This document shows, piece by piece, positions 5,823-40,511 of a stretch of 64,000 bases of DNA. The first letter of the stretch is position 1. The number at the start of each line of letters is the position of its first letter. A program made the position numbers and the translations under genes. The stretch is from Neobacillus sp. YX16 (GTDB taxonomy: Bacteria; Bacillota; Bacilli; Bacillales; Cytobacillaceae). The stretch lies in assembly GCF_030123505.1 (NCBI RefSeq), contig NZ_CP126115.1, positions 32,501 through 96,500 on the forward strand, in the 5' to 3' direction. The notes below the pieces were generated by a model that saw nothing but the letters and a program-made list of their open reading frames with translations, was not told where the DNA came from and searched no databases.

Positions 5823-5844
5823 CAAGGTTCTTAGTATACATGAA

Positions 5845-5876
5845 AAAGGCTGGCTTCAATAATGAAACCAGCCTTT
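5845..5876. terminator. bidirectional terminator after tmk
   Basis: AAAGGCTGG / CCAGCCTTT (5845-5853 with 5868-5876), A-rich before and T-rich after. It lies between the convergent tmk and GH43 genes, so it can serve both. Confidence 0.85.
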
Positions 5877-5883
5877 AATCTGC

Positions 5884-6867
5884 TTATTTATCTCCGTAAG
5901 GGTCAATCGTTTGAATCGTTCCATCTTCGTTATAATTAAGTTCAGTGTATTTGACAGAGCGCTTATGGTTTACTCCATCTGATAACGAGCAATCGTGATA
6001 GAACAGGTACCACTTATCGTTAAACTCTACAATTGAATGATGTGTGGTCCAGCCAATAACAGGGGTAAGAATGGTTCCTTTGAACACAAATGGACCCTGT
6101 GGGTTTTCACTTACCGCATAAACAATTTTATGGGTTGTACCCGTAGAATAAGACAAATAGTAAAGGCCTTTGAATTTATGAACCCATGGTCCTTCAAAAT
6201 ATCTTCTATCTTCGTCACTTACAAGAATCGGATTGCCATCTTCATCAATAATGGAGATTTCCTTCGGTTCACTTTTAAATGTCAGCATATCTTCACTTAA
6301 TTCAGCTACTCTCGGACCTATTGCAGGTTCTGTCGGAGCTGGGCCCTCAGCATCTGAAATAAATGCTCCAGTCTGCCATTTTTCTAACTGTCCTCCCCAA
6401 AGACCGCCAAAATAAATATAGGCTTTTGAATCTTCATCCACTAATACAGCTGGGTCGATGCTGAAGCTGCCAGGTATGTAATTTTCTTCTGGTATAAAAG
6501 GGCCTGCAGGATTAGAGCTTGTTGCGACACCAATTCTAAATATGCCATCTTTATCTCTTGCTGGGAAGAATAAATAATACGTGTTGTTTTTGTAAGCTGC
6601 ATCAGGTGCCCACATTTGTTTAGATGCCCATGGAACATTTTTTACGTGAAGCGCTTCCCCGTGGTCAACAACAGGAGAGTTAACATTATCCATGGATAGG
6701 ACATGGTAATCTTCCATCTTATATTGGTCACCATTATCATTAGAAGGTTCATCATGATCAAGGTCATGTGAAGGATAGATATAAAGCTTTCCTTCAAAGA
6801 CATGTGCGGAAGGATCTGCAGTATAAATGTGCGTAACTAAAGGTTCATTAGGTTTTGAGTTTTTCAT
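5884..6867 (-). CDS. Glycoside hydrolase family 43 protein (arabinofuranosidase/xylosidase type)
   Basis: 327-residue single-domain GH43 five-bladed propeller with no signal peptide, so a cytoplasmic enzyme. The catalytic triad is visible: base Asp18 in YTADPSAH, pKa modulator Asp138 in SFSIDPAV, acid Glu225 in RRYFEGPW. Such single-domain enzymes are usually alpha-L-arabinofuranosidases or beta-xylosidases acting on short arabinoxylo-oligosaccharides; the sequence alone does not decide. Start at 6867 rather than 6873, because GGAGAG is 8 nt before the inner ATG. It has its own promoter overlapped by a XylR-like operator and reads away from xylR. It differs clearly from the other GH43 gene at 26251. 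Confidence 0.88.
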   Translation of the reverse strand: MKNSKPNEPLVTHIYTADPSAHVFEGKLYIYPSHDLDHDEPSNDNGDQYKMEDYHVLSMDNVNSPVVDHGEALHVKNVPWASKQMWAPDAAYKNNTYYLFFPARDKDGIFRIGVATSSNPAGPFIPEENYIPGSFSIDPAVLVDEDSKAYIYFGGLWGGQLEKWQTGAFISDAEGPAPTEPAIGPRVAELSEDMLTFKSEPKEISIIDEDGNPILVSDEDRRYFEGPWVHKFKGLYYLSYSTGTTHKIVYAVSENPQGPFVFKGTILTPVIGWTTHHSIVEFNDKWYLFYHDCSLSDGVNHKRSVKYTELNYNEDGTIQTIDPYGDK

Positions 6868-6909
6868 TATCATATCTCTCCAATAGCTAGTTTAGATACT
6901 TTCAATTTC

Positions 6910-6945
6910 ATTATAACTGAAGTTGGTTACTTTGTATATCCAAAC
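6910..6945 (-). promoter_or_regulatory. promoter of the GH43 gene with overlapping XylR-like operator
   Basis: On the minus strand: -35 TATACA (6938-6933), 17-nt spacer, -10 TATAAT (6915-6910). The operator-like stretch 6927-6945 (GTTTGGATATACAAAGTAA on the minus strand) covers the -35 and closely matches the palindrome at 8229-8247. The layout is the same as at xylA. Confidence 0.6.
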
Positions 6946-37757: not shown

Positions 37758-38543
37758 TTAGAAAACGCTCTCATCGTTTACTTTTCGATAGGTACTTGGA
37801 GTTATCCCTTCAAGTTCCTTGAAAATTTTAATAAAGTATTTAGAAGTTTTATAGCCGACCTCTTCAGCAATTTCATTGATTGGCAGATTGGTTAAAATAA
37901 CCAATTCTTTTGCGCGCTGAATTCTTCTTCTTGTTACATACTCACTAAAATTTAGATTGGCCTGGTCCTTAAACAACACGCTAAAATAACTCGGATTCAA
38001 ATGAACATGAGCAGCTACGTCCTTTAAGGTCAATTCATCCTTTAGATGTTGATCGATATAGGCTATGGCTTTGCGAATAGGATCTTTCGATGAATCCATT
38101 TTGTTGTTGGTTTCGACTATTTTTTCATCCACTACTTTTTCAATCATCCCGGCTCTTACTTGCTTTTCCATAACCTTAACTGCTTCTTCAACAGCTTCAA
38201 TCAGCTTCTTTTTACCGATAGGCTTTAAAAGATAATTTACTACACCGAGCCTTAAAGCTTCCTGAGCATACTCAAACTCGGAGTAAGCGGAAATAACTAT
38301 GACCACAGGAGAGGACCCTTTTTCTTTCATGTTTTTTAACAGTTGTAATCCAGTCATCTCAGGCATGCGGATATCAGAAAGCAAAATATGAATCTTCTTT
38401 TCTTCCATAATCCCCAGGACTTCTTCGCCGCTATCCGCAGTGAGGATGGTAAAGTCACCATTATTCCAACTTTCTAACGTTCTCTGCAAGCCTTGCCTTG
38501 TTCTAGGTTCATCGTCAACGATTACGATATTTTTAGTAAGCAT
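37758..38543 (-). CDS. Two-component response regulator, AraC type (YesN/XynC-like)
   Basis: 261-residue regulator: receiver domain (1-120) with acidic pocket Asp10-Asp11, phospho-acceptor Asp57 in LLSDIRMPE and the lysine in NYLLKPIG; then an AraC/XylS-type double helix-turn-helix (about 158-255) with YKTSKYFIKIFKELEG. Its ATG follows the stop codon of the kinase gene without a gap, so the two are translationally coupled. It probably activates the transporter operon when oligosaccharide is sensed. Confidence 0.92.
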   Translation of the reverse strand: MLTKNIVIVDDEPRTRQGLQRTLESWNNGDFTILTADSGEEVLGIMEEKKIHILLSDIRMPEMTGLQLLKNMKEKGSSPVVIVISAYSEFEYAQEALRLGVVNYLLKPIGKKKLIEAVEEAVKVMEKQVRAGMIEKVVDEKIVETNNKMDSSKDPIRKAIAYIDQHLKDELTLKDVAAHVHLNPSYFSVLFKDQANLNFSEYVTRRRIQRAKELVILTNLPINEIAEEVGYKTSKYFIKIFKELEGITPSTYRKVNDESVF

Positions 38544-40286
38544 TTACTCTCCTCCATCAATTGGCAGCTCGAATGAAATCCTTGTGCCCATGTTTAATTT
38601 ACTCTCAATCAAAAGGTCTGAATGTGTGATTCCTTTGTAATATAATTTTAAGCGTTTGTAAACGTTGGAAATGGCCATTCCTTTTCCTTTCACTGAAGAG
38701 GTACCACCCGTTTTCATTGATTGAGTAATCCACTCAAGCCGCTCTTTATCCATACCAAGACCATCATCTTGAACAGAGATGCAAATCCATTCTGTGTCTT
38801 CCCGTTTTATCGGTACAACCGTTATTGAAACGAGGCAATTTCCGAGCTTGTTTCCTGCGCCATGCAAAATTGCATTTTCTACCAAGGGCTGGATAATCAG
38901 TTTTGGTATTCTTACATGCTCGTATTCTAAGGGTACCATTACCTGCCATTGTAATCTGTCACCAAAGCGCATTTTCATAATTTCCATATAGTCACCTATA
39001 TGCTTGATTTCGTCTTTCAAAAACACCCAATCATCATCGGATTCTTTTGTAATGGTATAACGGAATAAATTGGACATGGCTAAGACTAGTTCAGACAATT
39101 CTTCTTCATCCTTTTCTTCAAGTGACCAATGAAGTGCATCCAGTGTATTGAAGAGAAAATGCGGGTTAATTTGTGCTTGAAGAGCTTTCAATTCGCTGCG
39201 GCTTCGTAAAATCTCCTTTTGATAAACCATCTGGATTAAATGATTGGTTTCTTTAACTAGCTGATTATAGGTACTGTTTAATTCATTAATTTCATTTACA
39301 GAAGAAACACTAGGATTCAATGTTAATGAACCTTCTCCCGCACGCTGCATGGTTTTTGTTAATCTTACTATTGGCCTTGTAATGACTGTTGAAAGGAAAT
39401 AGGAGCAGATTGTAAAAATGAATACACCAAATATTCCAGATAAAATAAACCCTGTCCGAATCCCTAACATTCCCTGTGTTAGTTCACTTACAGGGGTTAA
39501 AATAAGCACGGTCCAACCTGTGAGCTTGGATGATTGCTTTGTCACCATATACTCTCGCTGATTTAATTGAACAATGTTTTCATCGCTTTCAATAATACTC
39601 TTTATATCTCCATGATAATTGTTGATAATTGGCTTTTGGTCTTGATCTAGAAGTATGGTGTATTGATCGTTTTCATTTGTTTCGTTTGCAAATTTAATAT
39701 GATTACGGTTAATACTAATTAAAAGATAACCGCCATTCCTAAATTGTCTTTCTATTAAATTGACACTGCGAATGGCGAGAAAGTAGTTTTTATCAGCTGG
39801 ATCCTCACCAATCCAAACCATACTTCCTTTTGCTGTATTTGCTTTATTAATCCACTTTTTATCAATTTGGTTCAATAAAGAATCTTCATCTAGGGGTAGA
39901 ACACGCTGCTGTTTACCAGCAAAGAGCTGAAAGGAAAAGATTCCATCTGTATTCCCCATAATTCTGTTGATATGTCCCATTAAACGTTGACGGTCACTAA
40001 ACGATACTTCTTTTCTATGATGGACATCCGTTAAGATCCGTTGGACCTCTTCATCCGTTATCACAAGCTTTGAGGACATGTTAATTTGCTCATAAAGTGA
40101 TTCGATACGGCCATTTGCTTCGATGGCCACTTGTTGGATTTGTTTTTCAGCATTATTTTTTAATAAAGAGGAAACCTGTCTCAACGTAAGAAGACTGACA
40201 ATCAATAGAACAATGATCATAACTAATAAGAAAATCAATAAAATTTGATTCCGTAAAGTATTCCATTTTTTTAGTCGATTAAGCAT
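38544..40286 (-). CDS. Sensor histidine kinase (YesM/XynD-like)
   Basis: 580-residue membrane kinase: membrane segment near residues 15-37, an extracellular sensing domain (about 40-285), a second membrane segment near 287-307, HAMP (about 308-360), a His-kinase domain with the acceptor histidine in QINPHFLFNTL, and HATPase_c with VENAILHGAGN and DDGLGMD. This build is the LytS/YesM class that partners AraC-type regulators for polysaccharide sensing. It is first in the leftward operon and divergent from darA. Confidence 0.92.
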   Translation of the reverse strand: MLNRLKKWNTLRNQILLIFLLVMIIVLLIVSLLTLRQVSSLLKNNAEKQIQQVAIEANGRIESLYEQINMSSKLVITDEEVQRILTDVHHRKEVSFSDRQRLMGHINRIMGNTDGIFSFQLFAGKQQRVLPLDEDSLLNQIDKKWINKANTAKGSMVWIGEDPADKNYFLAIRSVNLIERQFRNGGYLLISINRNHIKFANETNENDQYTILLDQDQKPIINNYHGDIKSIIESDENIVQLNQREYMVTKQSSKLTGWTVLILTPVSELTQGMLGIRTGFILSGIFGVFIFTICSYFLSTVITRPIVRLTKTMQRAGEGSLTLNPSVSSVNEINELNSTYNQLVKETNHLIQMVYQKEILRSRSELKALQAQINPHFLFNTLDALHWSLEEKDEEELSELVLAMSNLFRYTITKESDDDWVFLKDEIKHIGDYMEIMKMRFGDRLQWQVMVPLEYEHVRIPKLIIQPLVENAILHGAGNKLGNCLVSITVVPIKREDTEWICISVQDDGLGMDKERLEWITQSMKTGGTSSVKGKGMAISNVYKRLKLYYKGITHSDLLIESKLNMGTRISFELPIDGGE

Positions 40287-40459
40287 TGATTGTTCGCCTT
40301 TCTTTTCTATAATAATTTCTAATTATATTATTATACCTTTTTTATGTAATCGTTGTCTTTTAGAGTTATGTGGAAATTACCCAGTTTTGTGAGAATGTAA
40401 TTTCAGACAACTTTCAAAATAACTCACTGTCGAATATCAATGTGAGAAGGACAAATACC

Positions 40460-40468
40460 TGTTATAAT
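40460..40468 (+). promoter_or_regulatory. extended -10 promoter for darA
   Basis: TGTTATAAT: TATAAT at 40463-40468 with the TG extension at 40460-40461. No good -35 is seen 16-18 nt upstream, as is usual for extended -10 promoters. It marks the right border of the island, where core transcription resumes. Confidence 0.6.
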
Positions 40469-40511
40469 ATAGGAAAGATATATGAAATATGGATGAAGGG
40501 GTTGGTTTGAG

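Follow-up and report, generated by a model that had tools for sequence, protein, structure and literature searches.

A mosaic hemicellulose cassette and an alternative essential-gene allele at the tmk-darA interval of Neobacillus

The chromosome of Neobacillus sp. YX16 (RefSeq assembly GCF_030123505.1, contig NZ_CP126115.1) carries, between the dTMP kinase gene tmk and darA, an island of hemicellulose genes. We analyzed a stretch of 64,000 nucleotides around it (hereafter, the window), in which the island occupies positions 5823..40511 (34.6-34.7 kb) and comprises 26 open reading frames (ORFs) with 93% coding density. In the sampled genus, the island is strictly paired with a divergent allele of tmk, which we call tmk-II, and its contents differ between carriers. 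A preliminary description, made from the nucleotide letters alone, had proposed an insertion of about 20 hemicellulose genes between tmk and darA. The insertion, the genes listed and their coordinates, the two importers, the ROK-family XylR, and the two-component system are all borne out, as is the hemicellulose character, but not the gene count.

Gene content, predicted function, and position of the island

All 26 island ORFs received family assignments from profile matches (Pfam/NCBIfam; Table 1). The tmk, darA, XylA, XylB, UxuA, and UxuB-type mannonate oxidoreductase matches all exceed NCBIfam cut-offs, and the glycoside hydrolase (GH) assignments (two GH43, GH39, GH10, GH67, and GH2) are Pfam matches. 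In agreement with the preliminary description, no integrase or transposase is present among the 26 ORFs of the window's island, all of which belong to other families, and ARAGORN found no tRNA gene in the window. Since the window lies inside a single contig of 6,231,385 bases (bases 32,501-96,500) and sister genomes show identical junctions, an assembly join at either border is unlikely, and we rejected an assembly artefact as the source of the island. The 23S and 5S rRNA genes are found immediately left of the locus (positions 1-2983). Relatives are cited below by genome label: G033 is Bacillus sp. 7884-1, of the same species as the window; G024, G038, and G039 are N. niacini MER TA 87, PL-B1, and NBRC 15566, respectively; G015 is Neobacillus sp. 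CF12; G056 is Neobacillus sp. DY30; and G057 is a metagenome-assembled genome.

Table 1. Features of the tmk-darA interval and its flanks (window positions)
Feature	Position	Strand	Basis or remark
yaaO-type Orn/Lys/Arg decarboxylase-family gene, left flank	3705..5171	+	Pfam PF01276
tmk-II, divergent dTMP kinase allele, island-linked	5181..5822	+	TIGR00041, 200 bits
Terminator-like inverted repeat	5845..5876		inverted repeat; alignment with G007, G018, G019
GH43 (GH43a)	5884..6873	-	PF04616
XylR-type ROK-family repressor	7028..8179	-	ROK PF00480; NagC/Mlc-like NCBIfam matches under cut-off
xylA, xylose isomerase	8556..9887	+	TIGR02630, 729 bits
xylB, xylulokinase	9958..11457	+	TIGR01312, 639 bits
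Glucuronoxylan block	11461..32541	+	family matches; not at the corresponding place in same-species G033
GH39	11461..13002	+	PF01229
GH10, probably intracellular (domain from residue 11)	13121..14131	+	PF00331
UxuB-type mannonate oxidoreductase	14215..15060	+	NF006132, 439 bits (cut-off 281)
cre-like site (motif presumed)	18353..18367	+	intergenic, ahead of ABC importer 1
ABC importer 1 (permeases 18513-19487, 19481-20374; binding protein 20443-22110)	18513..22110	+	
uxuA, mannonate dehydratase	22987..24042	+	NF003027, 501 bits
GH67 alpha-glucuronidase	24073..26172	+	PF07488, PF07477, PF03648
GH43 with GH43_C2 domain	26251..27855	+	PF04616, PF17851
GH2, 1139 aa	29122..32541	+	PF02836 and others
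Aldo-keto reductase (AKR)	32596..33579	+	family match
ABC importer 2 (type A), DUF624 protein and permeases	33695..36127	-	
ABC importer 2, binding protein	36342..37649	-	PF01547
Two-component system (AraC-type response regulator 37758-38543; dCache/HAMP histidine kinase 38544-40286)	37758..40286	-	
darA upstream stretch	40405..40511	+	carrier/empty-site homology resumes at 40405
darA, right flank	40512..40841	+	NF058593, 180 bits (cut-off 140)

By homology, the role of the island is inferred to be glucuronoxylan and xylose catabolism. Xylo-oligosaccharides and aldouronates are likely taken up via the two ABC importers, each made of a permease pair and a binding protein, and the GH67, GH10, two GH43, GH39, and GH2 enzymes likely degrade the imported oligosaccharides. 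XylA and XylB would then likely pass xylose onward, UxuB and UxuA likely serve the uronate branch, and the XylR-type repressor and the two-component system are the likely regulators. The central block of the island reads GH39-GH10-uxuB-GfoA-GfoB-NIF3-permease-permease-SBP (substrate-binding protein)-DUF624-uxuA-GH67-GH43-ADH-GH2. Three matches to what we take to be the catabolite-responsive element (cre) motif occur in the window, against 0.38 expected, and the one at 18353 is intergenic. The preliminary description had called the island complete; this does not hold, since UxaC, KDG kinase, and KDPG aldolase are not among the 26 ORFs and a second, larger GH10 gene (an open frame of 1173 codons with CBM4/9 and CBM9 domains) is located at 2.26 Mb. 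In G024, genes for a PfkB kinase and a KDPG-type aldolase are part of the tmk-darA slot.

This arrangement is reminiscent of the aldouronate cluster of Paenibacillus sp. JDR-2, which groups intracellular GH67, GH10, and GH43 enzymes, regulators, and ABC transporters and is accompanied by a distant large GH10 (PMC4765114; here and below, comparisons with published systems refer to portions of the cited papers). GH67, GH10 (intracellular by its domain start only), GH43, and an ABC transporter are likewise clustered in the window. In JDR-2, a distant surface GH10 is co-regulated with the cluster; a distant large GH10 gene also exists here, at 2.26 Mb, and the island adds xylA/xylB/xylR, GH39, GH2, UxuA/UxuB, and a second importer.

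A check of composition and codon bias, proposed in the preliminary description, revealed no foreign signature: GC content is 0.385 in the island versus 0.393 in the right flank (nearby DNA, 0.390-0.393), and the codon-usage distance of the island (0.085) compares with a mean of 0.089 for random halves of the core genes. Compositional foreignness was thus discarded, both measures being ordinary. Similar xyl cassettes do occur elsewhere in relatives, at other sites in non-carriers, and on both counts the cargo looks native to Neobacillus.

The near-origin location also stands, with the island about 38-73 kb from the contig start and gyrB at 4.5 kb. It had been suggested that this position raises gene dosage in fast growth, and every located carrier does have the island at the same place. 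However, an adaptation of this kind appears quite unlikely to us, since the position follows from the exchange site discussed below and non-carriers hold the same cassette elsewhere. Moreover, several carriers keep GH67 distant: G056, G015, G016, and G017 have the xyl part in the tmk-darA interval and GH67 far off (2.47 Mb in G056), so that origin proximity is no property of the whole pathway.

A divergent tmk, the island edges, and the distribution of insertions

The preliminary description regarded both flanks as conserved core genes, which fails on the left side, where tmk is a divergent allele. The window gene is the only strong Tmk match in its genome (187 bits; the two next-best matches score 26 bits), which thus has one intact Tmk-family gene, at its normal place. 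We searched 60 Neobacillus genomes, with a tmk match in 59 and a darA match in 60 (G006 is without a tmk match, and G060 stands outside both sets). Identity to the window's tmk is 84-100% in the 10 carriers of the island and 60-67% in the other 49 genomes with a match; tmk-II is therefore present in 10/10 carriers and 0/49 others. Nucleotide identity between the window and G007, whose site is empty, is 95.7% for both csfB and darA, 96.1% for holB, 95.3% for ricT, 91.3% for gyrB, 96.6% for gltX, 84.7% for yaaO, and 67.4% for tmk.

In protein trees, tmk-II forms one clade and native Neobacillus tmk another, and the relatives of tmk-II include N. vireti proteins, unplaced proteins, and the gene of G065, a genome of another genus. 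Among the best 120 of 7723 protein matches, N. vireti proteins reach 81-82% identity and unplaced proteins 76-81%; in genome contigs (best 80 of 312 tmk relatives), the nearest sequence outside the carriers is at 67%. A plasmid source was also tried and rejected. Since 123 of the 124 matching plasmid records are below 60% identity and one falls in the 60-80% band, the collection holds no close plasmid copy of tmk-II. In G048 (96% complete), the tmk region (G048:C3:243642-244243) contains two in-frame TAG stops and a frame break, which may be sequencing errors.

The right edge of the island is well defined. In alignment, the 10 carriers and three empty genomes share sequence from 40405, about 107 bp ahead of darA, and the edge falls in the same base region in all 10 carriers, including both of the arrangement types described below. 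On the left, tmk-II adjoins a yaaO gene whose 3' third varies, and identity to G007 drops from about 4756. The terminator past GH43 (5845-5876) is the left end of the cassette: homology with cassettes located at other sites starts there, and the same terminator is found beside those cassettes, clearly in G007 and G018 and partially in G019. At locus L017 (G039, contig C44), the stretch just before the shared right edge is unlike that of every other carrier and the contig ends there; something else may lie between the permease and darA in this genome.

The island could in principle be a former mobile element, driven by an integrase or an insertion sequence, whose mobility genes were later lost. 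The draft contigs of G039 and G057 do break within the interval, as repeats would cause, and the divergent G039 sequence before darA, beyond the shared edge, fits this proposal as well. Nevertheless, we hold it to be very unlikely: the 26 ORFs include no mobility gene, no tRNA is present, the cassette edges coincide with gene ends, and no shared direct repeat was found at the two junction stretches, each of which was searched on its own.

Adjacency of tmk and darA, assumed in the preliminary description, is indeed the usual state. The two genes share a contig in 57 Neobacillus genomes and are spaced by 108-964 bp in 48 of these; the remaining nine comprise eight carriers at 14.4-40.5 kb and G040 at 3.9 kb. 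The eight gaps (14.4, 16.7, 16.8, 27.9, 28.6, 34.7, 37.0, and 40.5 kb) differ in contents, and two further carriers, G039 and G057, have island parts on contigs broken inside the interval. The G040 insert (L249, 6000-13500 of contig C61) has an ORF resembling an IclR-type regulator and two further ORFs. Among named loci (best 80 of 312 tmk matches), 66 show a spacing of 33-475 bp. The other 14 are six carriers, five loci without a darA match but with holB 25-885 bp past tmk, the GH94 locus L038, one locus ending 216 bases after tmk, and L034 (Lysinibacillus odysseyi MF12), which has no darA or holB match within 10 kb downstream of tmk and where the gene order around tmk seems rearranged.

A family-wide tmk-holB scan covered 193 genomes, of which 138 are among both sets of matches listed, 135 of them with the two genes on one contig. 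Among these listed single-contig matches, the gap is below 2.9 kb in 78 family genomes outside Neobacillus, and gaps above 1.6 kb are confined, besides the eight carriers, to G085 (2.8 kb, darA present) and G040 (4.3 kb to holB). Four of the 55 genomes not among both sets (G063-G066) were examined separately, and G070 has tmk and holB on different contigs. At L250 (G085), a minus-strand ORF of 478 aa between darA and holB widens that interval. The same genes thus do not lie between tmk and darA throughout the family, where close spacing prevails among the genomes listed. Relative to nearly all relatives examined, the island is an insertion; yet it is not private to the strain, being present, with differing contents, in 10 of the 13 genomes of the N. 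niacini clade (support 100/100). The three empty genomes of this clade (G004, G007, and G008) have tmk-darA gaps of 144-149 bp (149 bp in G007).

Mosaic contents and conflict with the marker tree

The module made of the second importer and the two-component system exists in two types, with 55-76% protein identity between them. Type A (minus strand) is found in the window, G033, G024, and G038, and type B (plus strand) in G015, G016, G017, G056, G039, and, in part, G057. Three genomes (the window's, G024, and G038) have the GH67 block in the slot; G015, G016, G017, G056, and G007 have it at another place in the genome, and G057 on a separate small contig. No GH67 block was found in G033 or G039, and in G033 the search for GH67 was negative genome-wide. 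Genus-wide, GH67 occurs in 16/61 genomes and xylA in 34/61. G007 and G018, and in part G019 and G052, carry cassettes of similar gene order at sites away from tmk-darA; that of G007 (GH43-xylR-xylA-xylB-AKR-...-permease) is contiguous and adjoins its GH67 block.

A presence/absence difference exists within one species, as G033 is without the 20-kb block from GH39 to GH2 (11461-32541). In xylB, G033 and the window differ by 28 mismatches in positions 9958-11249 (1292 bases) and by 53 in the last 208 bases; in the AKR gene, by 61 mismatches in the first 507 bases and 12 in the remaining 477. The divergence thus steps near 11250 (xylB) on the left and near 33100 (AKR) on the right, with the block in between, and steps of this sharpness are what one would expect of homologous recombination. 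In the final part of xylB, the window is similar to G024 and G038 (91-92%), and G033 is close to none. In the xylR-xylA gap, G033 (L008) has two short ORFs (165 and 155 aa), G024 has one Gfo/Idh/MocA-type gene of 335 aa, and the window has no ORF of about that size.

We built a marker tree of 20 genomes from gyrB and gltX, only two markers, with groups named after the distribution was known. In this tree, G000 groups with G033, and the empty G007 joins them (100/98) within the carriers. The carriers as a single clade are rejected on these markers (approximately unbiased [AU] test, p 5.45e-14), and at least two, at fewest three, changes of presence/absence state are required. The tmk-I of G007 groups with those of G004 and G008, whereas tmk-II and GH43a each form one carrier clade (100/100 for GH43a). 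The flanks show the incongruence that characterizes integrase-less hotspots: tmk conflicts with gyrB+gltX, and identity steps at 40405. Within the island, one carrier clade is rejected for xylB (AU p 0.008) and AKR (AU p 0.003), and G007's copies of these two genes, located elsewhere in its genome, fall among those of the carriers.

An intragenomic rearrangement could have moved the xyl cassette next to a native tmk that merely evolves fast. The native composition, the similar copies elsewhere in non-carriers, and trees with tmk-II as sister to native tmk, which pass AU tests, all agree with such a scenario. We nevertheless find it unlikely, because G007 sits inside the carriers and yet has a tmk-I grouping with those of G004 and G008, which drift within a lineage does not yield, and because a tmk-II relative exists in another genus (G065), whose congeners are without one.

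Vertical inheritance with losses is a serious possibility, to which we give somewhat below an even chance: tmk-II and the cassette would have been acquired a single time by the ancestor of the N. niacini clade and inherited, and G004, G008, and G007 would have lost both when a tmk-I segment from another lineage took the place of the whole stretch. In its favor, carrier tmk-II and GH43a are each monophyletic, both edges are shared, and tmk-II divergence among carriers is core-like, as between the window and G024 (93.1, 94.2, and 95.8% nucleotide identity for tmk, gltX, and holB, respectively). In addition, yaaO identity to the window falls at about 4756 for G007 but not for G024. However, this scenario, too, requires homologous recombination to have replaced an essential gene two or more times, so that vertical inheritance differs from the exchange that we favor in direction only, and the xylB and AKR trees show that contents were exchanged too.

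The tmk-darA interval as a candidate exchange site

Our comparisons show the co-occurrence of tmk-II and the cassette, a shared right edge, a conflict with the marker tree, and recombination-like steps within a species. We consider it probable that the interval serves as an integrase-less exchange site, occupied by a mosaic hemicellulose cassette and an alternative allele of an essential gene. In this scheme, the near-origin tmk-darA interval would exchange DNA without an integrase of its own. A native cassette (GH43-xylR-xylA-xylB-...-AKR-importer/two-component system) would sit beside tmk-II, enlarged here by the 20-kb glucuronoxylan block, and empty sites would hold the ordinary allele, tmk-I. 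Since one continuous stretch contains the alternative allele, the cassette, and the shared flanks, paired crossovers, one on the yaaO side and one on the darA-holB side, could swap tmk and cargo jointly, in either direction, and extra crossovers within xylB, AKR, and other shared genes could remodel the contents. DNA would arrive by transformation or another route, and selection would presumably act on the cargo, with tmk carried along.

Insertions beside tmk are also found in a second genus (g3, five genomes). An ORF of 2741-2759 aa lies between tmk and holB in G064, G065, and G066 (L244, L238-L239, and L248); the three ORFs share 67-69% identity and appear to be cyclic-glucan-synthase-like, with GH94 and glucoamylase domains in that of G066. 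No such large ORF is present between tmk and holB in G063 and G067, and no darA was recognised between these genes in G063-G065 and G067. Repeating the Neobacillus pattern in another genus, G065 combines a tmk-II-lineage allele (100/99) with an 8.2-kb tmk-holB insertion, and G063 and G067 have neither; the tmk of G066 groups with Caryophanaceae, and that of G064 with its congeners. From tmk-II and the xyl islands in the N. niacini clade, together with the foreign-looking G065 and G066 alleles and the GH94 gene, we tentatively suggest that exchange at the tmk slot may recur across genera, with an essential-gene allele and carbohydrate cargo moving as a single recombination unit. Because each segment swapped in would supply a functional tmk, recipients would then lose nothing essential, and the slot would be permissive for large swaps.

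Several points weigh against the exchange proposal, in whole or in part. Trees that make tmk-II the sister of native Neobacillus tmk withstand AU tests (p 0.56 and 0.31), and we therefore gave up a strict claim of foreign origin for tmk-II. Because tmk-II divergence between carriers (84-94% nucleotide identity) resembles that of core genes, the distribution may largely reflect vertical descent and loss. A single carrier clade is not rejected for xylR (AU p 0.14) or xylA (AU p 0.12), and the left edge is blurred by the fast-evolving yaaO. G033 differs from the window in further patches (xylA, 88-93% at 9241-9541; the importer/two-component region, down to 89%); steps other than those in xylB and AKR therefore exist, and the interval recombined at more than one place. 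Finally, G040 has its 3.9-kb insert beside tmk-I, and G064 an 8.2-kb insert beside a tmk that groups with its congeners; a foreign-looking tmk is therefore frequent with insertions, not obligatory, and the strict claim that insertions need one was dropped on these two counterexamples.

In integrase-less hotspots, a variable block between core genes is exchanged by homologous recombination in the flanks (Oliveira et al. 2017, PMC5635113). Here, too, what lies between one pair of core genes varies among relatives, and the window has no integrase, transposase, or tRNA; in contrast to the hotspots outlined there, one flanking gene, itself essential, comes in two divergent alleles, one going with filled and the other with empty sites, and the cargo is also found at other places in the genus. 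In the Bacillaceae genus Geobacillus, hemicellulose genes likewise form a variable island with a constant location, the hemicellulose utilization (HUS) locus on the echD-npd island, whose GC content lies 2-7 points under that of the respective genomes (PMC4194401); here, the flanks are tmk and darA and there is no marked drop (0.385 versus 0.390-0.393 nearby). In Pseudomonas putida KT2440, tmk is interrupted by a 65-kb island, and a phage-like dNMPK supplies the function instead (PMC10653934), which also ties a genomic island to the identity of the tmk function, although in the window tmk is intact, at its normal place, and of another allelic lineage. No title or abstract opening describing the Neobacillus locus turned up in our literature searches, which does not prove absence. 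The locus is mechanistically familiar; what is new is the strict pairing with an alternative essential-gene allele in the sampled genus.

The clade is small, the edges are defined, and one natural presence/absence pair exists within a species, so that the mechanism can be tested in laboratory strains. Vertical inheritance is the usual assumption for essential informational genes, and the locus cautions against relying on genes of the tmk region as markers of vertical descent in these bacteria. Since the allele of an essential kinase sorts with a catabolic island, carbon-source traits may drive the replacement of core-gene alleles, or the reverse.

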